Below, in pieces: positions 660 through 12,293 of a stretch of 13,800 nucleotides of DNA; the stretch's first letter is position 1; each line of letters opens with the position of its first letter. Below the pieces are notes generated by a model, which was given only the letters and a program-made list of their open reading frames with translations, had not been told where the DNA came from and did no database searches. A program made the translations under genes and the position numbers. Source of the DNA: Thermoplasmata archaeon (lineage in GTDB: Archaea; Thermoplasmatota; Thermoplasmata; JAGHBH01); contig JAGHBH010000187.1 in NCBI GenBank assembly GCA_021161085.1, positions 1-13,800 of the forward strand, written 5' to 3'.

Positions 660-1277
660 ATGGCACGGCCCCACCGTTTCCCCATGGAGAAGGCGGCGTA
701 TCTGATATCCGGGGAGAGAAGGAAAAAGACCGACCCGGAAAAATTCCTGGATGCCTTGGAAGGGTGTGTTGGACCCCTCTCAGGGAAAAAAGTTGCCGAC
801 ATAGGTTGTGGCCCCGGTTTCTTCACCATCCCCCTGGCCCGGAGGGTGGGATCCGGTGGAAAGGTGTGGGCGGTGGATGTGGAAAAAGGCGTGCTGGACA
901 TGCTCTTGGAGCACATTCCCCCCGGAATGGAGGACAGGATAGAAACCGTGCATTCCGCCGTGGACCGCATACCCCTCCCGGACGGGGTGACAGACGGGGT
1001 GCTGCTGATAAACATATTTCACGAGATCCGGGGTACCGCAACCCTGGATGAGGTTGATCGGATACTCTCCCCGGGAGGGTTCATGGTGGTCCGGGACTGG
1101 GACATGGTGGAGACCCCACACGGGCCGCCCCTCTCCGAGAGGGTTCCCCCCGACCGAGTGGGAGAGATTCTTGAAGAACTCTCCAGAGGCCGTGGCGGAT
1201 ACGAGAAAACGGCCGTGCTACCTGACAAAAGGGACCACTATACACTGGTCTTCAGGAAACAATCTCTCGACCTGTAA
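660..1277 (+). CDS. Class I SAM-dependent methyltransferase
   Basis: The product has 205 residues. Residues 45-55 (VADIGCGPGFF) are the glycine-rich SAM-binding motif I. VWAVDVE around residue 73 supplies the acidic residue that binds the SAM ribose. ILSPGGFMVVRDW (about 135-147) matches the post-motif III strand. The N-terminal part (HRF..EKAAYLISGERRKK.DPEKFL) is the lead-in common to UbiE/Methyltransf_11-type small-molecule methyltransferases in archaea and bacteria. The substrate cannot be assigned. The start at 660 is preferred because the TATA-like element lies about 28 nt upstream and the conserved lead-in begins there. The 3' end overlaps by 26 nt the end of the convergent STAND gene. 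Its cofactor would come from the SAM synthetase encoded later in the window. Confidence 0.85.
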   Translation: MARPHRFPMEKAAYLISGERRKKTDPEKFLDALEGCVGPLSGKKVADIGCGPGFFTIPLARRVGSGGKVWAVDVEKGVLDMLLEHIPPGMEDRIETVHSAVDRIPLPDGVTDGVLLINIFHEIRGTATLDEVDRILSPGGFMVVRDWDMVETPHGPPLSERVPPDRVGEILEELSRGRGGYEKTAVLPDKRDHYTLVFRKQSLDL

Positions 1278-4176
1278 CCCTCTGATCCTTCCGTCCTCCT
1301 CTCCGGGCGGCCTCTTTCTTCAGCCCGGCCGCAGCCTCCTCGGCATCATGCCAGCCCTCTCTCTCCGCTATCTCGATGATCTCCTCCGCCAGCTTCTCGG
1401 CATCCCTGTATCTTCCGGAAAGAAGCAGGCTTCTTCCCGCCGTGTACATGCCGGCCAGGGCCCCACGGACATCCCCCCCGGCCTTGAGCATCTCGGCGGC
1501 ATCCATGGCCTCCGAAAAGCTCCGCTCCATGTCCCCCGCCGCACGAAGATCCAGGGCCATCTCTATCTTCAGCCGTGCCAGGGCCGTTCTGTCGCCCGCC
1601 CTTTCCAAGATATCCGCTGCTTTTTTCCGCAGTGACAGGGCATTCGTGGGCCTGCCCTTTTCCCGGAGGAACGATGCCGCCGAACCCAGCCACATGGCCA
1701 CCACCGGGGGAGACGGATGGGAGGGATGCCTCATGCGCTGTACCCGTGAGGGACGTATGCGGGCCGAGTCGGAGAAATCGTAAAAAGCCTCGACCCCGGG
1801 AGAAACACGGTCAAAAACCGCCTCGGCCCCGGAGAGGTCCTGCGGCAACATGGTGTCGAGAACCTGTGATGCGAAGGAGAGGGCCACGTCGTGGGATGAG
1901 GATGCCAGATCCCCGTAAACTTGGGAGAAAGCGGACACGGCCCGGTCTATCTCGCCGATCTGTGTTAGAAGCCGGATGAGGGTGAAGGCCGCCGCCCTCT
2001 CCGCCTCGTGGTCCCCGAGTTCCCTGGACAGAGATATGGAACGCTCCAGAAATCCTACGAACAGGCCGTCATCCCCGCCCCGGAGAAAGGAGATGACGCC
2101 CATCTCGTGGAGGGCTGCGGCTTCTCCCCTGGGGTCTCCGACCTTCCTGAACTTTTCAAGAGCCGCCGAGGCATATTCCAGGGCCCTCTCCATATCCCCC
2201 CTGCTCCGGTATGCCGTGGCAAGGTTCAGCCTCTCCCTGGCCTCCATCCTCACATCGCCAGTGGATATGGCCTTTTCCAGGGCCGATGCGAAGGTGGATA
2301 TGGTCTCCTTCCACATGTTGAGATCCCTCTGGACCACCCCTATTCTTTCCCTGGCCTCTTCCTCAACAACCCTCATCTCCTCAGCCAGGCCGTTTCCGCT
2401 CTGCCGGGAGGCGTAAACCGCAGCCGCAGTATATCTGTCCAGAGCTCTTTCCAGTTTTCCCCTCCCCCTCCAGTAGTCCCCCTCGGCCACATATAGACGG
2501 GGGAGCAGACCCTTCCCCCGGGTTTCCTCTGATGCAGCGGCCTCCTCCAGTCTGCCGAACATCGCCTCGGCCTCTCTCTCCGGCAGGGACGACAACATCC
2601 TATCGGCGGACAGGAACACCTCAACGGCCCTCATGGGGCTGTCGGATGCGAGAAAATGCATGATGCACTCCCGCAAAACGGAGATATCAGGATACTCCTC
2701 CCCCCCCACAACCCCTGCCAGATAGTCGCCCGCCTTTCTGTGCAGAATCTTCGCCTCCTCGGGGGAAAGAAGGGATAACACGCCCTCGCGCACGAGATCG
2801 TGGATCACATAATCCTCGCCTGTGGAGGATATCAGCCCCGACGATATCATATCATCCAGCATTCCGAGGTCCTCAGATGACATGGACAAACCCAGGGCCT
2901 CCGCCGGCACGGGAAGGTTGAAGACGGAAAGCATCTTTACGACCTCAACGGCCTTCGGGGGGATGAGGGAGAACAGTTCCCTGCGGAAGAAGGAGGAGAT
3001 GTCCTCTCCGGAAAGCGGTCTTCCCATCTCCGCCGAGATCTCCATCAAGAGGGGGTGGCCTGCCGTGCTCTCGTATATCTCCCTCCATAGCTCCGCCGCA
3101 CCTGGGTTCTTGGCTTTTATGAATTCCTCGGCGGCCTCCATGTCCATTCCCCCCAGCCGTATCCTGACGACCTCTCCTCTGTCCGTTTCCCTTGAAAGCC
3201 ATCGCAGTCCCGTACGGGATACGAGAACGAGGAGATATCCTCCTGTTTTTCTGGCGTCAACCATGATGCGGAAGAACGGCATCCACTCTCCCGCCCCGCC
3301 GCTCTCGTTGTCCGGGGTCTCATGGACGTCGTCCAGAACGAGTATCGCCCCGGCCCCTCCGAGGGACTCCAGGGCGGTTTTGAGTCTGCGCTTCGGCGGA
3401 GGGCTGCGGCTTCCCACCGTGTCCCTCTTTCCGGAGAGTTCTCTGGAAAAACGCTCCACCTCCAGTAAAAGGTCTTCCGGTTCCTCCCACACCTTGATCC
3501 TGTGCCAGAACACTGGTCTCTTTCCGGCAAACCTCCTCAGGGCCTCGGCAGCCAGATATGACTTTCCTATCCCCGGCATCCCCGTGATGTGGACTATGTT
3601 TCCCGCCGAACCCGAACCGAACACTTCTTCCATGAGGGACAGTTCCTTTTTCCGGCCGCAGAACCCCAGGGGATCCGGCATCTCCGACACGAAACGAACC
3701 GGCCCCCCCTCCAGGATATCCCTGGCTTTTGTCATATCTAGGACACCGAAACGGCGGTGGAGCTCCACCAAAACCCACCGGGGGATTCCCATGGACGCAA
3801 CACGGTCTATGGCCTCGCCGAACGGCATCTCCTCCACCCGCCGGCCTTCACCGTCCTCCCCCCACACCACTTTAACCCTCTCCCCCCTCAGGGACTCCAC
3901 CAGAGAGGCGGCGGCTTCCATACCCTTCTCGGTCAGGAAGAATACACGGCGGCGGCGCCGTGCCCCGGGAACCCGGCCCAGAACGGAGGACACCATCCCC
4001 TCGTCGGCCATCCTGGAGAGTATCTTGGAAAGGTTGCTAACCCTTATGGATAGGGCCTCCCCCATACCCTCCTGACAGACGTGGAAGGGATGCTCGTATG
4101 TGTCTTCCTCGAAGGGGTGGCAGTGGAGCAGAAGGAGAATCCTCTGCTCGTTTCCGAGCTGCGAGATGGCCGCCAT
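1252..4176 (-). CDS. Winged-helix / STAND NTPase / TPR signal-transduction protein
   Basis: The product has 974 residues. Residues 1-100 look like a MarR/ArsR-type winged helix, with a recognition region near RVSNLSKILSRMADEGMV, a basic wing GARRRRRVFFLTEKG, and one cysteine. Residues 170-400 form a STAND P-loop NTPase: Walker A GMPGIGKS at 199-206, Walker B ILVLDD at 278-283, and a sensor-like LVLVSRTGLRWL near 316-327. A helical region (about 400-490) resembles the arm behind the NTPase of MalT/AfsR-type proteins. From about 555 to the end, helical hairpins such as ERLNLATAYRSRGDMERALEYASAAL (shown here only as an example of TPR spacing) indicate a TPR sensor domain. By analogy the TPRs sense a ligand or partner, ATP drives assembly, and the winged helix binds DNA. 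The ligand is unknown. The start at 4176 was chosen because a TATA box lies about 30 nt upstream; the frame further upstream reads through that promoter. Confidence 0.8.
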   Translation of the reverse strand: MAAISQLGNEQRILLLLHCHPFEEDTYEHPFHVCQEGMGEALSIRVSNLSKILSRMADEGMVSSVLGRVPGARRRRRVFFLTEKGMEAAASLVESLRGERVKVVWGEDGEGRRVEEMPFGEAIDRVASMGIPRWVLVELHRRFGVLDMTKARDILEGGPVRFVSEMPDPLGFCGRKKELSLMEEVFGSGSAGNIVHITGMPGIGKSYLAAEALRRFAGKRPVFWHRIKVWEEPEDLLLEVERFSRELSGKRDTVGSRSPPPKRRLKTALESLGGAGAILVLDDVHETPDNESGGAGEWMPFFRIMVDARKTGGYLLVLVSRTGLRWLSRETDRGEVVRIRLGGMDMEAAEEFIKAKNPGAAELWREIYESTAGHPLLMEISAEMGRPLSGEDISSFFRRELFSLIPPKAVEVVKMLSVFNLPVPAEALGLSMSSEDLGMLDDMISSGLISSTGEDYVIHDLVREGVLSLLSPEEAKILHRKAGDYLAGVVGGEEYPDISVLRECIMHFLASDSPMRAVEVFLSADRMLSSLPEREAEAMFGRLEEAAASEETRGKGLLPRLYVAEGDYWRGRGKLERALDRYTAAAVYASRQSGNGLAEEMRVVEEEARERIGVVQRDLNMWKETISTFASALEKAISTGDVRMEARERLNLATAYRSRGDMERALEYASAALEKFRKVGDPRGEAAALHEMGVISFLRGGDDGLFVGFLERSISLSRELGDHEAERAAAFTLIRLLTQIGEIDRAVSAFSQVYGDLASSSHDVALSFASQVLDTMLPQDLSGAEAVFDRVSPGVEAFYDFSDSARIRPSRVQRMRHPSHPSPPVVAMWLGSAASFLREKGRPTNALSLRKKAADILERAGDRTALARLKIEMALDLRAAGDMERSFSEAMDAAEMLKAGGDVRGALAGMYTAGRSLLLSGRYRDAEKLAEEIIEIAEREGWHDAEEAAAGLKKEAARRGGRKDQRVTGREIVS

Positions 4177-4201
4177 CGGATGTGGATATGGGATGGCGGG
4201 G

Positions 4202-4210
4202 TATAAATTT
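4202..4210 (-). promoter_or_regulatory. TATA box of the STAND regulator gene
   Basis: TATAAATTT on the plus strand (AAATTTATA on the coding strand) is centred about 30 nt upstream of the ATG at 4176. This implies a leaderless or very short-leader transcript. It sits in a 98-bp divergent intergenic region shared with the surface-protein gene. Confidence 0.6.
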
Positions 4211-4230
4211 ATGGAAAAACAACACAAAGC

Positions 4231-4239
4231 ATATATAAA
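4231..4239 (+). promoter_or_regulatory. TATA box of the surface-protein gene
   Basis: ATATATAAA lies about 25-30 nt upstream of a start site expected near 4260, leaving a leader of roughly 14 nt that contains the Shine-Dalgarno sequence. It is about 27 bp from the divergent TATA box, so a regulator bound between them could control both genes. Confidence 0.6.
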
Positions 4240-4262
4240 CCGCGGAAGAGGGTGGTTATGGT

Positions 4263-4269
4263 GAGGTGA
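4263..4269 (+). promoter_or_regulatory. Shine-Dalgarno site choosing the ATG at 4275
   Basis: GAGGTGA is complementary to the anti-Shine-Dalgarno end of 16S rRNA and lies 5 nt before the ATG at 4275. An in-frame GTG at 4266 lies inside this motif and is therefore an unlikely start. Confidence 0.65.
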
Positions 4270-4274
4270 ATGAA

Positions 4275-5771
4275 ATGCTCGGAAAGAAAGCAACCATATT
4301 CGGGCTTGCACTCCTCCTGGGCCTCCTGGTGCTCTCACCCGTGAGCCTCGCCGAGGAGGAGGAGAACGACCTGACCGTCAACATAACAACCGCCAGCGGA
4401 ACGACCGGAGAATACGGCGGCGGAGACTACTATTTCATAAAGTTCGGAACCGATGAAGCGGGCATCGATTCCGCATTCGGCGTGGTCTGGGGCACCGAGG
4501 AGCATCCGAACACCATAAAGATAATCACCGTCCAGGCCAGATATCTGGGTGTGGCCAACGTCTCCGGAGAGGGAGGCTCCTACCGGCACATGATGAAGGT
4601 CTACACCTACCACGGGATAGCCCTGGGCAACCTCATAGAGTTCAACGACAGCGACCAGAACGGCATGTTGTTCTACGACCCCAGCCCCACGGCTGACGAC
4701 CCGGGGAACGCCACCTTCGAGAACGTGGATACCGTGTACAACAAGAGGGTTCCCATGTGGGGTGCTTGGACAGCCTCCAACGTGACCACAACCACGGACC
4801 CGGAGACCGGGGAGAGAACATGGACCTTCACCCTATCCCGGGAAAATCTCACCTACCGGAAGATATGGTGGTTCCAGCCGCTGGACGAGGGAGCCGAGGG
4901 GAACACCTTGGACCGTGTGGAGTTCACCTTCCACCTCAGGGCCAGGATGGTCGAGGTGAACAACGTCACCATACCCCAGTACAGCGTTGAGGTGGAAAAG
5001 GGTACGGGACAACACTGGAAGGTGACCGACGTGGAAAAAACAGGGGAGTTGAACGTCTCAGGCAAGAAGGCCCTCTACGGTGTCAAGTGGGACCACCTGA
5101 TAGAGGGATGGGATTTCAACCCAGAGAACCAGAACCCCATGCTGCTCCTTGAGACGAGAAACATATTCGGCAACGCCATACCACCTGGGGCCAAGGCCTG
5201 GATGAGGGAGAGGTTCATGAACCGGCTGGGAGAGGGCGGATGCGTTGAGGCCGACACGGAGAACGGCACCGTGGAGCTGAATGACACGGACCCGGGACCC
5301 CCGCCGGGACACCCACGGCTGCTCAGGGCCAACCGCATAGAATACGAGGGAGGATGGACCAGGGTGGCCAGGTTCACATGGGTGTCCAACGTCACGGTTG
5401 ACGACGAGGAGATGGAGATGCACGCACAGATACACCGGGCGGCCGCCTATGCCTTCGTGGGCCCCCACGGAAGAGGGTTCGCCGGATTCGCCTTCCGCAT
5501 GGCCTTCACCTACCCGGGAGGCGAGAGCATATTCCACGACCCGGGAGTGGACGGCTCGATGTACCTTGACCTGCAGGAGTCCTCAACAGGGACGAACATA
5601 CCCATCGGCGCCAACCTCAGGGGCCTGGCTTTCTTGGGCATACTGGTGATCGCTGCCATAGTGGTCGTGGCGGTGGTCAAAGGGAGGAAGAAGCCCCCGG
5701 TGTATCACGACCAGTACGTCCCCGTGGACAACCAGCAGGACCAGTGGGACCGCTACTACAGACAGCAGTGA
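4275..5771 (+). CDS. Exported, C-terminally membrane-anchored surface protein
   Basis: The product has 498 residues and I do not recognise a family. Residues 1-26 form a Sec signal peptide: KK, then hydrophobic ATIFGLALLLGLLVLSPVSLA, with a likely cut before an EEEEND acidic stretch. The ectodomain is rich in tryptophan, tyrosine and acidic residues. It holds about eleven N-x-S/T sequons (NIT, NVS, NDS, NAT, NVT, NLT, NVT, NVS, NGT, NDT, NVT), so it is probably N-glycosylated. About residues 449-468 (LAFLGILVIAAIVVVAVV) form one membrane helix, followed by GRKK and a short polar tail rich in Q, D and Y (cytoplasmic if the signal peptide is cleaved). It could be a cell-surface or envelope protein; beta-rich binding domains are plausible but not proven. 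It has its own TATA box and Shine-Dalgarno site and is divergent from the STAND regulator. Confidence 0.7.
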   Translation: MLGKKATIFGLALLLGLLVLSPVSLAEEEENDLTVNITTASGTTGEYGGGDYYFIKFGTDEAGIDSAFGVVWGTEEHPNTIKIITVQARYLGVANVSGEGGSYRHMMKVYTYHGIALGNLIEFNDSDQNGMLFYDPSPTADDPGNATFENVDTVYNKRVPMWGAWTASNVTTTTDPETGERTWTFTLSRENLTYRKIWWFQPLDEGAEGNTLDRVEFTFHLRARMVEVNNVTIPQYSVEVEKGTGQHWKVTDVEKTGELNVSGKKALYGVKWDHLIEGWDFNPENQNPMLLLETRNIFGNAIPPGAKAWMRERFMNRLGEGGCVEADTENGTVELNDTDPGPPPGHPRLLRANRIEYEGGWTRVARFTWVSNVTVDDEEMEMHAQIHRAAAYAFVGPHGRGFAGFAFRMAFTYPGGESIFHDPGVDGSMYLDLQESSTGTNIPIGANLRGLAFLGILVIAAIVVVAVVKGRKKPPVYHDQYVPVDNQQDQWDRYYRQQ

Positions 5772-5845: not shown

Positions 5846-5952
5846 GGCAGAAGGTAGACACCCCAATGTCCCATTGGTTTGGTAATAGTTGTTGGGTGTT
5901 AGGTTAGGGTGGGGGGGGGTTCTTCAGGTTTTTGGGTGGTAGAAGCCACAGG

Positions 5953-5962
5953 GTTTATATAC
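5953..5962 (+). promoter_or_regulatory. TATA box of the IS1634-like transposase
   Basis: GTTTATATAC is about 30 nt upstream of the ATG at 5990, inside the element, so the IS carries its own archaeal promoter. Confidence 0.5.
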
Positions 5963-5989
5963 GAGTTAGATATTACCGATGTTGGTAAT

Positions 5990-7408
5990 ATGTCTGGTTT
6001 ACCTGAATGGGTGCGCAAGCATAAGAAAAAGGGCATGGCTGTGGAGAAAAGAGGTGACAGCTACTACCTCACCCGGGTGACCTCTGTGTGGGACCCTGAG
6101 AAGAAACGTGCACGAAAGGTGACACTCGAGTACTTAGGACGGATCACGCCGGAAGGAGTCATACCTCCGAAAGGAAAACGTCCTACTGAATTGGGTGGAA
6201 TACTTGATGCAGGAAATTACGTGTATCTTGAAAACTTCGCCCGTCATCTCGAAGGACCGCTGAGACAGTGTTTCCCTGACGATTGGCAGAGCATACTTGC
6301 AACAGCCGCCATCAAACTCTGCTATGGAGAACCCTTCCGAAGGATGCAACTCCGTCACCAGACAAGCCTATCCAAACGGCTCTGGCCGAAGGCAGCGCTC
6401 AGCAAGAACAGCCTGACAAGACTCCTGGAACGGCTGGGTAATCAGTGGCCGGCACAGAGGGAGTTCTTCACGAAGATATCTCGGGAAGAGAAGCACATGG
6501 CCATAGACCTCAGCCACATATTCAGCACAAGCAAGAACATCCCGTGGACGGAGTATGGCCACAACAGCGACGACATCTGGCGGCCCCAGGTTGGAATCCT
6601 TCTAATGTGGGGCACCAGCACAAAAAGACCTGGATTCCTGAAACTGCTCCCCGGAGCCACGCACAGCGCCCAGACGCTCATCAACGCTATATGGGAATCA
6701 GATATCCAAGAAGTTGTAGTAGTTGTTGACAAAGGATTCTGGAGCTCAAATAACCTAGCGGCCCTTGAAGAAGCGAACTTGGAGTACGTGATGGCCCTAC
6801 GTCGCGACCTGCCGATAGTCAAACACACCGCTCACAACCGTTACAAAAAGTATTTTCGATACCGGGGTAGAGTCCAGTGGTGGCACGCTCAAGAATGGGA
6901 AGGACGTACACTGTACCACTACCTAGACAAAACGATGGCAGCAGAGGAAGAGTCAAACTACCTTAAACGAGTGGAAGCAGGCCAGGAGACCATGACAAGA
7001 TTCCGGAAACTGAGACCCCGATTTGGAACGCTAACACTTCTCACGGACACAGGACTCTCTGCGGAGAAGACCTATAGCCTCTACAAAGAGAGACGAGACA
7101 TAGAGTACACATTCGACACACTCCAGAACACACTGGGAGCAGACACCACGTGGATGCGAACACGTGAGAGCCTCCAAGGATACCTATTCATCCAATACAT
7201 AGCCCTACACCTCTACAGCCAAATACTCGATCACCTCAAACGCAAAGACCTCCTGAAACGCTACTCGGTCCAAGACATCCTCACACATCTCTCAAAAGCC
7301 ACCGTGGTAGAGATAGATGGAAAAGACCGGATAGGAGAAATAACACGCCAGACGAAAAAGATCATAGAACTCCTTGAACTCCCTATTACCGAAAGACCGG
7401 GACATTAG
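5990..7408 (+). CDS. IS1634 family DDE transposase
   Basis: The product has 472 residues, a normal length for the family. The N-terminus (residues 22-50, DSYYLTRV.SVWDPEKKRARKVTLEYLGRI) is the typical lead-in of IS1634 transposases. The RNase H-like catalytic core shows D173 in AIDLSHIF, D247 in VVVVDKGF and E372 in the signature YKERRDIE (Y365, R368, E372). The usual downstream lysine of the YREK motif is not evident. The ATG at 5990 is preferred over an in-frame start at 5909 because the TATA box lies between the two. The stop lies inside the right terminal repeat, as is common in compact IS elements. The complete triad and intact terminal repeats suggest that it could be active. Confidence 0.85.
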   Translation: MSGLPEWVRKHKKKGMAVEKRGDSYYLTRVTSVWDPEKKRARKVTLEYLGRITPEGVIPPKGKRPTELGGILDAGNYVYLENFARHLEGPLRQCFPDDWQSILATAAIKLCYGEPFRRMQLRHQTSLSKRLWPKAALSKNSLTRLLERLGNQWPAQREFFTKISREEKHMAIDLSHIFSTSKNIPWTEYGHNSDDIWRPQVGILLMWGTSTKRPGFLKLLPGATHSAQTLINAIWESDIQEVVVVVDKGFWSSNNLAALEEANLEYVMALRRDLPIVKHTAHNRYKKYFRYRGRVQWWHAQEWEGRTLYHYLDKTMAAEEESNYLKRVEAGQETMTRFRKLRPRFGTLTLLTDTGLSAEKTYSLYKERRDIEYTFDTLQNTLGADTTWMRTRESLQGYLFIQYIALHLYSQILDHLKRKDLLKRYSVQDILTHLSKATVVEIDGKDRIGEITRQTKKIIELLELPITERPGH

Positions 7409-8487: not shown

Positions 8488-9227
8488 CAAAGAGTGAAAA
8501 ACATCGGCCGACCCCTCCAGTCCCCACCCCAGCCCGGCTCTACCGTATCTCGGACGCCGTCACGGAGGCGGAGGGATGGATACTCACCTACGTGAAAGGT
8601 CTCAAGGACAACGCTTCCATCCTGGACACCACCACAGCCATGCTTTCCCCCCGGCAGATAGGAGTACCCATATCCAAGGAGGCCCTGGACGCCCTCCATT
8701 CCTGGGACGGAGACCCCCCTCCCCTCTCCATCGAAGACGAACTCTACCTGGAGGGGCTGAGGGAATACGGCGAAGTGGACGCTCCTCCCCCCATACTCCT
8801 CAAGGCCGTGGAACTTTCCAAGAAGAACAACACCCTCCTCCGGCCTCTGGATATGAGAGAAGAAGAGTTCTCCGACATCTACTGCGACGCCGTATCCTTC
8901 TTCGACCTCTGGCGCAAGACCGCCCTCTGTAAAAAGATAACAAAGAAAGGCAGAATACCCTTCTCCAGGGAGGTGAAGAACGCCGAGGAATACGCCATCG
9001 CATGGGACGAGGTGTTCACCAGAAGAGAGGGATTCCGGAAAGTGGAGATGGAGAGAGAGAAACACATGGCCGAGAGCATGGTACACCTGCTGTCATCTCC
9101 CAAATCCCCGGGCACGTCTTCCGACTCCGCCCCCACCACCCTCTTCCTCCTGGAAGTGGAGAGATGGCCCGGAATAAAGGCCCTTATCGAAACCAGGTAC
9201 AAGATAGAGCCTATGACCCTCCCCTAG
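8484..9227 (+). CDS. Uncharacterised 247-residue protein coupled to the COG1395 regulator
   Basis: I do not recognise this protein. The GTG start at 8484 overlaps the stop of the upstream gene (GTGA) and is preceded by a good Shine-Dalgarno sequence, AGGGAGGA at 8473-8480, so translational coupling is likely. The protein is soluble, with no signal peptide or membrane helix. The first 17 residues are basic and proline-rich. The rest is mostly charged helix, for example RLYRISDAVTEAEGWILTYV and EEYAIAWDEVFTRREGF. A proline-rich low-complexity linker (PKSPGTSSDSAPTT, about 206-219) precedes a final LFLLEVERWPGIKALIETRY segment. Two cysteines (134, 149) are too far apart for a zinc knuckle. It could be a partner of the regulator, which is inference from coupling only. 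Its stop codon shares CTAG with the convergent SAM synthetase gene. Confidence 0.65.
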   Translation: MTKSEKHRPTPPVPTPARLYRISDAVTEAEGWILTYVKGLKDNASILDTTTAMLSPRQIGVPISKEALDALHSWDGDPPPLSIEDELYLEGLREYGEVDAPPPILLKAVELSKKNNTLLRPLDMREEEFSDIYCDAVSFFDLWRKTALCKKITKKGRIPFSREVKNAEEYAIAWDEVFTRREGFRKVEMEREKHMAESMVHLLSSPKSPGTSSDSAPTTLFLLEVERWPGIKALIETRYKIEPMTLP

Positions 9228-10423
9228 AAAGTGGATATTTTTCCTTCTACCACCATATCCGTAATGCTTCCTATGTCCGTAAGCCAGGAATCCACTATTC
9301 CCTTGACCTCCTTGGAAACCTTCCGGAAGCTCGCTCCCTTGGCCACGACAAGCTGTGCACTGGCCAGCTGGGGCCTGTCTATGGGATGTCCTATCTGGCT
9401 CAATATCCTCACATAGGCCTCCTCCACATCCCCTCCCAGCTCCTTGACTATGTTCTCCGCTATCCGGAGAGACAGCAGGTTGTATATCTTGCCAACATGG
9501 GTCACAGGATTCTTGCCGGAGGTCGCCTCCATGCTCATCGGCCTGTAGGGTGTGATGAGGCCGTTCGCCCTGTTGCCCCTTCCCACGGAGCCATCGTCCC
9601 CGTTCTCCATGGAGAGACCGGTCACCGTGAGATAGAACACGTTCCTCTTGTAATTGTCAGCGGTGTTGACATCCACCACCACCTCACGATCCGTGAGCTT
9701 TACCGCATGATCATGCACCATATCCCGGAGCTCCTCCACCAGGCTGATATAATGATCCCTGTCCGGGATGTATCCGGACACCATCGCAGCCGCGACGGTG
9801 AGATTTATCCTATCCCTCTTCCTGGAGCCCATCACCTTGACATCCTCCCCCACCCCCTTCATCTTCTTCTTCCACGGACCGTTTATCTTCTTCTCGGTCT
9901 CCAGCACTATCCTTTCCGTCTCGCTGTAGGGCGCATATCCGACACCGAAAGACGTGTCGTTGGCCAGATGCCTCTGCGTGTCATACACACTCCGAAGGTC
10001 CACGGATCCCTGGCCTATCCTGCAGTCCAGCGTTATATCCTCATCCAGATCCAGATTCGGACAGCAGGACTTCAGATAATCCCTGGCGGCCTTTATCGCA
10101 GTGGACCTGTAGGGAAGCCTCTCCTTGCCCACATGGGTCACCGCACGGCCCACCAAAAGGACATACACGGGCTCGAGAACATTACCGCCACCAAACCGGG
10201 GGGCCGACTGGCCGCCCACAATCTGCGTCTCGTCCGTGTTGTGATGGAGTATCCTCCCATACCTCTCGATGTACATCTTGGAAAGAGCGCGGCTCATACT
10301 CTCCGCCAGACCATCCGCTATACTGTCAGGATGACCTATCCCCTTTCTCTCCACCAGCTCGGTCTTCTGCCTGTCCATAGAAGGGACCCTGAGCCTCTCG
10401 ACCACGATATTCCTTCTAACCAT
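9224..10423 (-). CDS. mat: S-adenosylmethionine synthetase, archaeal type
   Basis: The product has 399 residues, the normal length of archaeal methionine adenosyltransferase (COG1812), which makes SAM from methionine and ATP in the cytoplasm. Family landmarks are [15 protein letters not shown] (24-38), [21 protein letters not shown] (60-80), RIGQGS (135-140), a [11 protein letters not shown] strand, [11 protein letters not shown] (250-260), [32 protein letters not shown] (about 276-306) and [10 protein letters not shown]. The ATG at 10423 is chosen because the family begins MxRNIxVE and GTGGAG lies upstream at a usable distance. The in-frame ATG at 10447 is only about 15 nt from the TATA box and would be upstream of the expected transcript start. 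It supplies the cofactor for enzymes such as the methyltransferase at 660. Confidence 0.95.
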
Positions 10424-10458
10424 CAATATCAACTCCACGGGCCTCATAGCCCGCAAGG

Positions 10459-10466
10459 CTTTAAAC
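10459..10466 (-). promoter_or_regulatory. TATA-like element of the SAM synthetase gene
   Basis: GTTTAAAG on the minus strand is about 39 nt upstream of the ATG at 10423, predicting a leader of roughly 13 nt. From here to 10550 the plus strand is A-rich with scattered CCCC and CCGC words and shows no gene. Confidence 0.45.
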
Positions 10467-10550
10467 GTTTTGTCGGAAAAACCGCTACAAAAACCCCGCA
10501 AAACCGCCAAAAACTGTCGAAAACCCCACAACACGGCTCCAAGACGAAAA

Positions 10551-10692
10551 GCCGCTGGAGGGATCCGTGCCCGCCTTTTTGCTGTCGCAAAAACGTGGGC
10601 GAAAAAAGACAAAAACAGAGAGCCGCCGGAGGGATTCGTGCCCGCCTTTTTGCTGTCGCAAAAACGTGGGCGAAAAAAGACAAAAACAGAGA
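10551..10692 (-). repeat. Two tandem 71-bp repeats fronted by the tRNA-Thr 3' end
   Basis: Units 10551-10621 and 10622-10692 are identical except for two bases. Each begins, on the plus strand, with the 17-bp GCCGCCGGAGGGATTCG that is the 3' end of the nearby tRNA-Thr (complementary strand); the first unit differs from it by two bases. After it comes a hairpin with 14-bp arms and a TGTC loop (10569-10600 and 10640-10671; two mismatched pairs), then an A-rich stretch. On the minus strand the tract follows the tRNA and is T-rich. Possible roles are an att-site scar, a transcription terminator or an element unit. No gene is supported here. Confidence 0.9.
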
Positions 10693-10738
10693 GCCGCCGG
10701 AGGGATTCGACACGGAGAGAATGCTGTCGCATTCCTCC
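10693..10738 (-). repeat. Third, diverged tRNA-Thr-tail repeat with hairpin
   Basis: The same 17-bp tRNA 3' end occurs exactly at 10693-10709. The sequence behind it differs from the 71-bp units but again forms a hairpin with a TGTC loop (10714-10738: GAATGC / GCATTC plus GGAG / CTCC with one bulged A). The stem is new, while the tRNA tail and the loop are kept. The stretch from 10739 to 10784 is AT-rich and holds nothing else I can name. Confidence 0.8.
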
Positions 10739-10784
10739 TATCTCATCCCTCCGTCGCTGATAATATATGCAATGAGTTAATATA

Positions 10785-10858
10785 AGCCGCCGGAGGGATT
10801 CGAACCCTCGGCCTGCTGATTACGAGTCAGCCGCTATACCGGGCTAAGCCACGGCGGC
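10785..10858 (-). tRNA. tRNA-Thr (anticodon CGT)
   Basis: The 74-nt sequence folds as a complete cloverleaf. The acceptor stem is GCCGCCG / CGGCGGC. A D arm with GCTT and AGC follows. The anticodon stem GCTGA / TCAGC encloses loop CTCGTAA, so the anticodon is CGT and it reads ACG. The variable loop has 5 nt, and the T arm is GAGGG-TTCGAAT-CCCTC. The discriminator is U73, which I recall as usual for archaeal tRNA-Thr. CCA is not encoded and there is no intron. Both ends are copied elsewhere nearby: the last 17 bp three more times downstream and the first 10-14 bp twice upstream. Upstream there is no normal TATA box at the expected distance. The nearest AT-rich stretch is inside a repeat hairpin (about 10887-10899), 29-41 nt from the tRNA 5' end. 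Confidence 0.93.
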
Positions 10859-10873
10859 ATTTGCTGCGCAAAT
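10859..10873. repeat. Perfect short hairpin abutting the tRNA-Thr 5' end
   Basis: ATTTGC-TGC-GCAAAT is a perfect 6-bp inverted repeat that begins on the base next to the first tRNA nucleotide. A related but imperfect hairpin with the same GC-TGC-GC centre stands at 11017-11038, in the same place relative to the second 44-bp repeat. Confidence 0.7.
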
Positions 10874-10914
10874 CCCGCCTGGTCGCAAAAACAAGTTTTG
10901 CTCCCACGGCGGCA
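10871..10914. repeat. 44-bp direct repeat, copy 1, with hairpin and tRNA 5' end
   Basis: This is identical over 44 bp to 11036-11079. An outer stem CCGCCTGG / CCACGGCGG (one bulged C) encloses GCAAAA / TTTTGC with loop ACAAG. The distal edge, read on the minus strand, is TGCCGCCGTGG, the first ten bases of the tRNA-Thr plus one flanking base. Confidence 0.9.
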
Positions 10915-11013
10915 CGAGGGAAATACTTGGTATTTCCCGAATAGGTGGAACTCGTTCCACCGTACGAGGGAAATGTGGAACATTTCCCGAGCAGGCGGAA
11001 ATCCCTTTCCGCC
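10914..11013. repeat. Tandem array of two 50-nt double-hairpin units
   Basis: Unit 1 is 10914-10963 and unit 2 is 10964-11013; both start ACGAGGGAAAT. Each holds two hairpins separated by a 5-nt GARYA spacer. First hairpins: arms GGGAAATAC / GTATTTCCC (10918-10938) and GGGAAATGT / ACATTTCCC (10968-10988). Second hairpins: arms GGTGGAAC / GTTCCACC (10944-10961) and GGCGGAAA / TTTCCGCC (10994-11013). All arms are perfectly paired. The two units differ at four base pairs, and all four are double, compensatory changes (A-T to G-C, C-G to T-A, T-A to C-G, C-G to A-T). Loops differ freely. No coding potential is seen. Confidence 0.92.
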
Positions 11014-11035
11014 ATGTTACTTCGCTGCGCTTCGT

Positions 11036-11079
11036 AATCCCGCCTGGTCGCAAAAACAAGTTTTGCTCCCACGGCGGCA
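11036..11079. repeat. 44-bp direct repeat, copy 2
   Basis: An exact copy of 10871-10914. Here the match to the tRNA 5' end extends to 14 bp (CCACGGCGGCATTT at 11069-11082, against 10849-10862). From 11083 to 11128 I see only unique sequence with one T6 run. Confidence 0.9.
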
Positions 11080-11128
11080 TTTAGGTGGAAGAGAGTTGGA
11101 TGTATGGTTTTTTGGTCAGCCGCTCCGA

Positions 11129-11218
11129 GGCGACAGCCGAGGCGAAGGGGAAACATCGTTTCCCCGGGCCGGGGCGACAGCCGAGGCAAGGAGGAAAAGA
11201 CCTTTAGGCTTTTCCTCC
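11129..11218. repeat. Two GGCGACAGCCGAGGC repeats, each followed by a long hairpin
   Basis: The 15-bp word occurs at 11129-11143 and 11173-11187, 44 bp apart. The first is followed by hairpin GGGGAAAC / GTTTCCCC (11147-11165). The second is followed by GGAGGAAAAG / CTTTTCCTCC (11190-11218). The word itself contains the small hairpin GGC-GACA-GCC. The stems use the same purine-left, GGAA-core plan as the 50-nt units and the insertion at 11468. Confidence 0.85.
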
Positions 11219-11233
11219 GAGATACCGGGTGTA

Positions 11234-12264
11234 TTATCGGGGGACCTTGTTGACTATGGTGTAGTGTGAGATGTCTTCCGGGTTGATAAAACCTGCGGTG
11301 TAGGCTTTTAGTGGTGTGGTTAGGTCGATGCCCCAGTGGAGGCGTTCGGTGTTGTACCATTCTATATAATCCTGAGGACCTGTTTTGAACTCGTCCCAGT
11401 TGTTGCAGGAATTACCGTATTCCTCCATGACTGTTCGGTGCCAGCGTTCGATCTTGCCGATGGTTGTTGGCGGAACAAGGTTCCGCCCACGTGAGAGGAA
11501 GCCTTGCTTCCTCTAACATGTGGGTTTTCGGATTCCTGCTTTGATGGGTTTGATTCCTTTTTTGTATGCACCATGTGTCGAATCTACTTGTTCCGCCTCG
11601 AGAAGATCAGAATTGTGAGCCATGATCGGTTAGCACCTGTCGTGGAGGGCCGAACATCTTAACTGCTTTGTCCAGTGTGTCCAGAACCGTGTCGGTGGTC
11701 ACGCTCTCCAGCACTCTGCTGGCTATGATGAATCTGCTGTGGTCATCCATGATCGTGAAGAGATATCTTCGGCCGTGTTCCAGTTCTTTGATGTCCATCT
11801 GCCAGAGACTGTTGGAGTGGTGTCTGGCGAATCGTTTCCATCTTTTTCGTTTCCTTTTTCCCCGAACAACCAGTCCAGCTTCCCATAGTATCTCGTGTAT
11901 TGCCTGGTGATTCAGTTTTCCTTTGAGACCTAATTGGGCCTGGATATTCTGCGCACCTTGTGTGGGGTGGGCTTTCCGGTATTCGATGATCCGCTCTGCA
12001 TATTTTGGCTTTTTACGGTGAACGGTCTTGGGCCTGCTGGGGTTTGTCCCGCAGAGCGGCCCAACATTTGTTCTCCTTCCAGCGTCTGATCCACTTGTAT
12101 ACGACCTGTCTGGAGACACCCAGCATGGCTGCGATCCTTCTCACCGGCATCTTGTCTTTACGCCACCGGTTGACAGCGTATTTCCGGACCTTGAACCAGT
12201 CCCTGGCCCGTCGGTTAAGTTTATCTCTCACTACGTTCCTATATCTCTGTGGCCTTGTTCTCAT
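11234..12264 (-). pseudogene. IS481-like transposase, degraded and interrupted by a double-hairpin insertion
   Basis: The N-terminal piece (12264 to 12013) carries a helix-turn-helix, RRIAAMLGVSRQVVYKWIRRW, ending in a frameshift near 12025-12045 in AALRDKPQQAQ. The next frame (about 12060 to 11607) holds the integrase core, with LWQMDIKELEHGRR, DDHSRFIIASRVLES and VLTDHGSQF. It stops at TGA 11609-11607. Further on, an A6 run (11558-11563) gives another frameshift before GIKPIKAGIRKPT. A 51-nt insertion brings an in-frame TAG (11515-11513), then TTIGKIERWHRTVMEEYGNS and DYIEWYNTERLHWGIDLTTPLKAY resume to a TAA at 11234. The catalytic glutamate region (GKIERWHRT) survives. At least four lesions make it non-functional. 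Family is judged from HTH plus rve layout (IS481 or a close relative). Confidence 0.85.
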
Positions 12265-12293
12265 GGTATCCAACTCCTACCATGCCAACAAGG
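11245..12293 (-). mobile_element. Remnant IS481-like element, about 1.05 kb
   Basis: CCTTGTTG at 11245-11252 is inverted as CAACAAGG at 12286-12293. The similarity continues inward with gaps (ACTATGGTGTAG against GCATGGTAGGAG). The ends are provisional: the pseudogene's last stop lies about 10 bp outside the left repeat, and no target duplication is evident. It sits between the tRNA hairpin cluster and the glutamine synthetase promoter. Confidence 0.55.
11468..11518. mobile_element. 51-nt double-hairpin insertion inside the transposase pseudogene
   Basis: Two perfect hairpins, GGCGGAAC-AAG-GTTCCGCC (11469-11487) and arms AGAGGAAGC / GCTTCCTCT (11494-11514, loop CTT), are joined by CACGTG. 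They split the transposase codons for ...IRKPT and TIGKIER.... TGT occurs on each side (11465-11467 and 11519-11521), consistent with a 3-bp target duplication. Insert plus duplication is 54 nt, so the transposase frame is preserved but an in-frame TAG is introduced. Removing 54 nt restores an uninterrupted conserved segment. The first hairpin has the same arms as those of the 50-nt units. Confidence 0.85.

Follow-up and report, generated by a model that had tools for sequence, protein, structure and literature searches.

Two adjacent 50-nt units in the 13,800 nt of DNA analysed here (the window) contain four hairpins. We think it probable, if some way short of certain, that these form a short tandem array of double-hairpin elements of approximately 50 nt, that the array occupies the spacer of a unit carrying the end of the neighbouring tRNA, and that the stems are kept paired mainly by template switching. 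Small hairpin-forming repeats make up a family in this lineage, and comparison of related sites shows that some of them insert as blocks of approximately 47–54 nt. Other repeats sit at the ends of tRNA genes and include a copy of the terminal stretch of that tRNA, to which an inverted arm is paired in many units. An earlier note on this DNA had described the units as tandem double hairpins; the co-change of the stems that it described holds, but its interpretation was too narrow and left out both the tRNA context and the signs of insertion.

Genomic setting

The window is contig C95 of the draft MAG G000 (1.02 Mb in 191 contigs, 57.6 % complete). G001 is the only genome of the same family alongside G000, and G100 (CSMAG_1396) was counted as one genome with G001 because contig and positions are identical. 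The S-adenosylmethionine synthetase adjoining the repeats shares 59–72 % identity (best segment) with 80 loci kept of 458, which come mostly from Thermoplasmata and allied archaeal MAGs, and the top match among these 80 is from Thermoplasmata archaeon CSMAG_1396. An organellar location of the repeats was not found, the synthetase neighbour matching archaeal MAGs. The open frame of the synthetase (9224–10732) extends upstream across the 3' repeat array, and the N-terminal stretch added in this way is probably non-coding. The window also includes a second mobile element, a transposase gene at 5909–7408 with a DDE_Tnp_1 domain, and an open frame of 1028 aa at 1252–4338 with AAA_16 and TPR matches.

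The two 50-nt units

Unit 1 (10914–10963, plus strand) is ACGAGGGAAATACTTGGTATTTCCCGAATAGGTGGAACTCGTTCCACCGT and unit 2 (10964–11013, plus strand) is ACGAGGGAAATGTGGAACATTTCCCGAGCAGGCGGAAATCCCTTTCCGCC. Each includes a 9-bp hairpin with a loop of 3 nt (10918–10938 and 10968–10988), namely GGGAAATAC-TTG-GTATTTCCC in unit 1 and GGGAAATGT-GGA-ACATTTCCC in unit 2, and an 8-bp hairpin, which is GGTGGAAC-TC-GTTCCACC in unit 1 (10944–10961, loop of 2 nt) and GGCGGAAA-TCCC-TTTCCGCC in unit 2 (10994–11013, loop of 4 nt). Four stem pairs differ between the units and all four are altered on both sides, with no one-sided change; the loops and linkers also vary. This confirms the four compensatory pair changes reported in the earlier note for two adjacent 50-nt units with varying loops, and we agree with its argument that paired changes of this kind need either structural selection or copying of one arm from the other.

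The 100 nt of units 1 and 2 hold four hairpins with a perfect stem of 8 bp or more and a loop of 2–4 nt. Hairpins of this class number seven in the whole window and three in 19 other contigs of the assembly (83,240 nt), and the density in the two units is above chance. As the units had been chosen for looking perfect, other hairpins were tested on bases that had not been used in choosing them. The units lie on the 5' side of a tRNA-Thr gene, in the spacer of the outer of two 5' repeat units, between partial copies of the 5' end of the tRNA.

Repeats flanking the tRNA-Thr gene

The tRNA-Thr gene (anticodon CGT; 10785–10858, minus strand) is at the centre of the repeats, and was the only match in the window to Rfam at the curated cut-off; the repeats matched no family. 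The inner 5' unit, nearest to the tRNA (10859–10913, minus strand), consists of a partial copy of the tRNA 5' end, GCCGCCGTGG, an inner hairpin, an inverted arm and a spacer. The outer 5' unit (10914–11078, minus strand) has the hairpin of the inner 5' unit again at 11039–11078, and units 1 and 2 with their four hairpins occupy its spacer. The partial 5'-end copies (CCACGGCGGCA on the plus strand) are at 10904 and 11069. Further out, a piece at 11116–11229 (minus strand) contains hairpins at 11147–11165 and 11190–11218 between tRNA-Thr-like fragments, which resemble the D-loop (CCCGGTAT) and the anticodon arm (GCGGCTGAC; read by eye). In locus L109 of G001, a 5' half is split in much the same way (by eye).

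On the 3' side, copies of the tRNA-Thr 3' end are found at 10692, 10621 and 10550, the last of them diverged, and each belongs to a unit on the minus strand. The type A unit (10692–10754) includes an inverted arm, CGGAGGGAT, a core hairpin, GAATGC-GACA-GCATTC, and the 3'-end copy. The type B unit (10621–10691) is made up of a spacer, the hairpin TTTTTGC-GACA-GCAAAAA and the 3'-end copy, and a second copy of it, in which the 3'-end copy is the diverged one, is at 10550–10620. Type B units lack an inverted arm, which counts against the explanation preferred here. We note that the region 10550–10709 downstream of the tRNA-Thr gene is a 71-nt tandem repeat, each copy of which holds the tRNA 3' end and the TTTTTGC/GCAAAAA hairpin, and that the frame of this hairpin also adjoins tRNA-Arg (L114) and tRNA-Lys (L108) genes.

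Copies of tRNA ends in G000 and G001

A total of 42 tRNA genes were examined, 17 in G000 and 24 in G001 found with Rfam, and one intron-containing gene called by ARAGORN only when introns were allowed. A 5' copy was defined as the gene's own first 12 nt with no more than 2 mismatches, within 700 nt upstream, and a 3' copy as its own 3' 16 nt with no more than 3 mismatches, downstream. Upstream, 39 copies of the gene's own 5' end were found at 21 of the 42 genes, against 0.65 expected from Markov shuffles; downstream, 19 copies of the 3' end were found at 17 of the 42, against 0.15 expected. Copies on the wrong side numbered 1 (5' end) and 0 (3' end). At least one type of copy is present at 29 of the 42 genes. 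A tandem repeat of approximately 68 nt that follows a tRNA-Glu gene in the 3' flank at L122, and ends in the tRNA-like sequence GGAGCACCA, was missed by this count.

The tRNA stretch copied in each unit is the terminal 12–20 nt, and 5' units are usually 65–90 nt long. Many units fold as a long hairpin with an outer stem formed by the tRNA end and its inverted copy, an inner hairpin that is often GGAA..TTCC, and an unpaired spacer of approximately 20–25 bases. When read outward from the tRNA, units on the two sides seem to have a common core, AGGNGGAA...TTCC..., and an identical order of parts, namely tRNA end, spacer, inverted arm, core and tRNA end (both by eye on the alignment). The pattern GGAAN{3,20}TTCC was also considered as a genome-wide marker, and was rejected as too loose (542 occurrences against 356 for the reversed pattern).

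Distribution in other genomes

The other 79 synthetase loci include 21 tRNA genes, in 15 loci, and 5' copies were found at three (L027, L029 and L033); by eye, the L033 copy looks like a plain duplication. In six other genomes with 31 tRNA genes, copies were present at 3 of the 6 genes in G002 and at none of the 25 in the remaining five. A model of the 3' unit (E ≤0.001, strict filters) had matches in 7 of 300 genomes of the class: 7 in G000, 11 in G001, 3 in G005 and one each in G015, G085, G112 and G155. The weak single model R1 matches were inspected in G015 and G112, and in G085 and G155 they were scanned for tRNA genes alone. One G005 match adjoins a tRNA-Thr gene not picked up in the count of end copies; the match in G112 is next to a tRNA-Gly gene. 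The frame GTGGGAGC-hairpin-GCGACC is common to the G002 units and the window's own 5' unit (by eye). Given the copies and model matches outside G000 and G001, the pattern is patchy and is not limited to one family.

Insertion of double-hairpin elements

A 54-nt double-hairpin element (11466–11519, plus strand), with the structure GTT-hairpin-CACGTG-hairpin-AACAT and ends that are ambiguous by a few bases, lies within a degenerate rve-type transposase gene (11243–12273, minus strand) that has a further frame break near 11607. The piece of the transposase after the insert matched PF13683 and PF13333 above the cut-off. The 54 nt are missing from all seven aligned transposase homologues (four genomes; 11 matches besides the window). 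Three homologues from one genome read GVRK-PTTQGKVERW where the window has GIRKPT, 18 extra codons with a stop, and then TIGKIERW. A DNA search of 60 genomes with the window transposase found its own copy and a 30-nt match in G001.

A second homologous site that differs in the presence of an element is L127 in G001, where two tandem 3' units share flanking words that abut (0 nt between them) in the first unit and are separated by 47 nt, a double hairpin, in the second. A unit of L145 has a 52-nt double hairpin within its inner hairpin, and the flanking halves match each other (by eye). The four hairpins of L131 look like a double hairpin whose CAC/GTG linker has a second one nested inside it (by eye). 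Several elements end in ATGTT..AACAT or ATCTT..AAGAT (by eye), which are short inverted ends. These are small elements with two adjacent hairpins, and the comparison of occupied and empty sites gives good support for the view that double hairpins of approximately 47–54 nt have inserted as blocks.

The anchor AAAGGTSGGAGGA, with 2 mismatches allowed, was not enriched in G000 (50 and 53 occurrences against 72 and 90 for the control) or in G001 (93 and 74 against 91 and 96). With at most 1 mismatch (30 loci), double hairpins were found at only 9 of 23 places, and five of these nine had already been seen. In these nine double hairpins, which were anchored by one arm, the free arms are paired, save for an A.C in L170 and a G.T in L184. 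On two contigs of G001, L176 and L184 carry very similar double hairpins in matching surroundings, and the stretches scanned there include no tRNA gene.

Pairing and compensation in other copies

For the inner-pair test, 61 places (57 distinct hairpin sequences) were picked on one criterion alone, the six-base outer arm NNGGAA with its complement. Complementary bases occupy the next inner pair at 49 of the 57 places long enough to have one, and the pair after it at 26 of 37 (halved from both-strand totals of 98/114 and 52/74), compared with approximately 25 % when the inner letters are shuffled.

The fit of each tRNA-end arm was scored against the entire rest of the unit, with one 332-nt 5' unit omitted. 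Arms fit their own units better than foreign units, which belong to other tRNAs, with scores of 6.76 against 4.82 for 5' units (38 of 39 units) and 7.89 against 6.11 for 3' units (19 of 19 units), and none of 20,000 permutations gave a value as high (P approximately 5e-5 for each side). However, the own arm was at least as good as all foreign arms in just 19 of 38 5' units and 8 of 19 3' units, which counts against the preferred explanation. Two other versions of this test were discarded. By duplex energy, the own arm beat all foreign arms in 8/38 and 4/19 units. A register test gave 6.93 against 4.17 (27 of 39 5' units) and 9.25 against 6.22 (16 of 19 3' units), and was dropped as it favours own pairs, the arm limits having come from the units' own fold.

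Close copies outside tRNA genes were compared in 27 pairs with flanks matching at 18/20 positions. There, 197 of 222 stem pairs are unchanged and 6 are compensated; 12 are unpaired as G.T or A.C and 7 are broken otherwise, and these unpaired cells also weigh against the preferred explanation. Loop bases differ at 47 of 97 positions and stem pairs at 25 of 222. With flanks of 17/20 (48 pairs), where chance matches enter, 258 stem pairs are the same, 34 compensated, 31 wobble-type and 57 (38+19) otherwise broken. Comparisons at 15/20 or 16/20 were rejected because chance matches dominate.

Among 14 3' units, 86.3 % of cells are paired, compared with 78.6 % in shuffles and 33.0–67.6 % in slid versions, and 17 cells are changed on both sides, compared with 6.4 in shuffles. 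Five pairs have a double change, a number reached in 45 of 500 shuffles. Alignment folding of these 14 units gave 11 pairs. RNAalifold predicted no structure for an alignment of 18 5' units, a further result counting against the preferred explanation.

Mismatches in the tRNA sense are 3 G.T, 16 A.C and 8 other in 27 5' units, and 6 G.T, 0 A.C and 15 other in 16 3' units; an earlier count of single mismatches was 5 A.C, 1 G.T and 4 other. Read outward, the wobble asymmetry is 22 to 3, and it was considered as a sign of RNA. It was dropped because arms with foreign partners show an equal bias (191 to 42), which reflects composition. No RNA-specific sign was thus found in the units, the wobble bias being that of foreign-paired arms, and promoter position near the units gave no pointer for or against a folded-RNA role.

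The earlier note had proposed that a perfect stem is kept through change, and that collecting further copies would test this. Pairing is far above chance in the copies collected, as the inner pairs show, and own arms fit better on average than foreign ones, but pairing is imperfectly kept: broken and wobble-type cells in the close copies outnumber compensated ones.

Origin of the repeats and of their paired stems

The repeats would spread by a process that copies tRNA ends locally, as the copies derive from the adjacent tRNA's own matching end. Their variable stems may stay paired mainly through hairpin-primed template switching in DNA synthesis, during which one arm would template the other, and strong transcription of tRNA genes may favour such switching. 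Selection acting on the folded strand may contribute. Published work describes template switching at hairpins as a route by which perfect stems and multi-base compensations arise (PMC8794818), and quasi-palindrome mutations in yeast assays as arising only under high transcription (PMC3820800). Potential templates, the tRNA ends, are close to the hairpins, often a few tens of bases away. Two further results count against this explanation. No positive mark of template switching was found, inverted loops, which mark one kind of switch, occurring in only one of 33 comparisons of non-identical loops, and profile searches for Y1 transposases and tyrosine recombinases tied no enzyme to the elements. 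Ordinary selection would account equally well for the unpaired cells in close copies.

Selection on a folded RNA would mean that the repeats belong to the leaders and trailers of pre-tRNAs, where their hairpins serve processing, stability or regulation and purifying selection keeps the stems paired. This view is consistent with the alternation of hairpins and unpaired spacers in the units, with the smaller share of changes in stems than in loops of close copies, and with the excess of paired and doubly changed cells in the 14 3' units. We nevertheless consider it unlikely. By eye, 5' units resemble 3' units on the opposite strand, so that one transcript would hold both in opposite senses; wobble pairs are tolerated no more than composition predicts; and a transposase gene is interrupted by the same type of element. 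The 13 of 42 tRNA genes without an end copy speak against RNA selection and count against template switching too. Assembly artefact is hardly credible: the assembly is a draft MAG containing repeats, but similar anatomy is found in several independent assemblies and the tandem copies are not identical to one another.

The end copies could also be old attachment sites left by tyrosine-recombinase elements that integrated in tRNA genes. Integration in tRNA genes leaves end copies distal to the tRNA that start close to the T-loop or stop close to the D-loop. The copies here are distal to the tRNA on both sides and begin or end at these points, a direct copy of the tRNA end is found at the far edge of the insert, and tyrosine recombinase matches were found in G000 (1), G001 (2) and G005 (1). 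Such an origin is improbable all the same, because the units, mostly 55–190 nt, are too short and contain no integrase gene, they repeat in tandem, many have an inverted copy of the tRNA end, and G002 (89 % complete) has units but no PF00589 match. Very improbable is spread of REP/RAYT-like repeats by a Y1 transposase, for which the numerous small hairpin repeats and one Y1 match in G002 can be cited: PF01797 had no match in G000, G001 or G005 (57–78 % complete), and the repeats accompany tRNA ends.

Beyond the template-switching explanation, we offer as a tentative and doubtful proposal that the repeats constitute a minimal class of DNA repeat with neither a gene nor a fixed sequence. The fold would be its main heritable property, arms would be recopied from each other, and the repeat would take up the tRNA end at its landing site and spread as arrays of end, spacer, inverted end and core.

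Comparison with known systems

Short, non-coding, hairpin-forming sequences present in multiple copies include the REP/BIME and MITE elements. The repeats described here are similar by this description, but the two main genomes (G000 and G001, both incomplete) had no Y1 transposase match. Double-hairpin elements of Allomyces mitochondria, reportedly described by Paquin, Laforest and Lang in 2000 (cited in PMC2800124), were argued to be mobile and are said to occur inside genes as well. Likened by architecture, they too consist of a pair of hairpins, measure a few tens of bp, are argued to be mobile and are found within genes, whereas the repeats here are in an archaeal chromosome and many of the units come with copies of the end of the tRNA beside them.

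Repetitive hairpin-forming elements of sponge mitochondria, with types that differ by complementary substitutions, resemble the present repeats in their perfect tandem hairpins, in double and multiple hairpins and in the complementary substitutions, and differ in that the cited passages do not mention copying of tRNA ends (PMC2800124). Neurospora mitochondrial tRNA genes are flanked by GC-rich palindromes that, like the repeats here, adjoin tRNA genes; going by a title cited in PMC2800124, these palindromes are highly conserved, whereas the stems here vary. Hairpins produced by template switching, as presented in PMC8794818, share the multi-base compensatory changes and new perfect stems, but they result from a mutation process and are not an inserting repeat family at tRNA genes. 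A literature search, in which subscription papers were thinly covered, found no account of hairpin arrays that copy tRNA ends in archaea.

Template switching has been proposed as an answer to the unsettled question of how perfect stems can change in sequence and yet remain paired (PMC8794818), and the pattern here may show hairpins copied arm from arm. In these archaea a single genome offers many parallel hairpin cases, and a candidate template often lies nearby. Comparison of strains can therefore separate templating from selection. That hairpin repeats fill the flanks of tRNA genes in some archaea also bears on tRNA processing and on genome annotation. By analogy, the nearest known kind would be the organellar double-hairpin and repetitive hairpin-forming elements.
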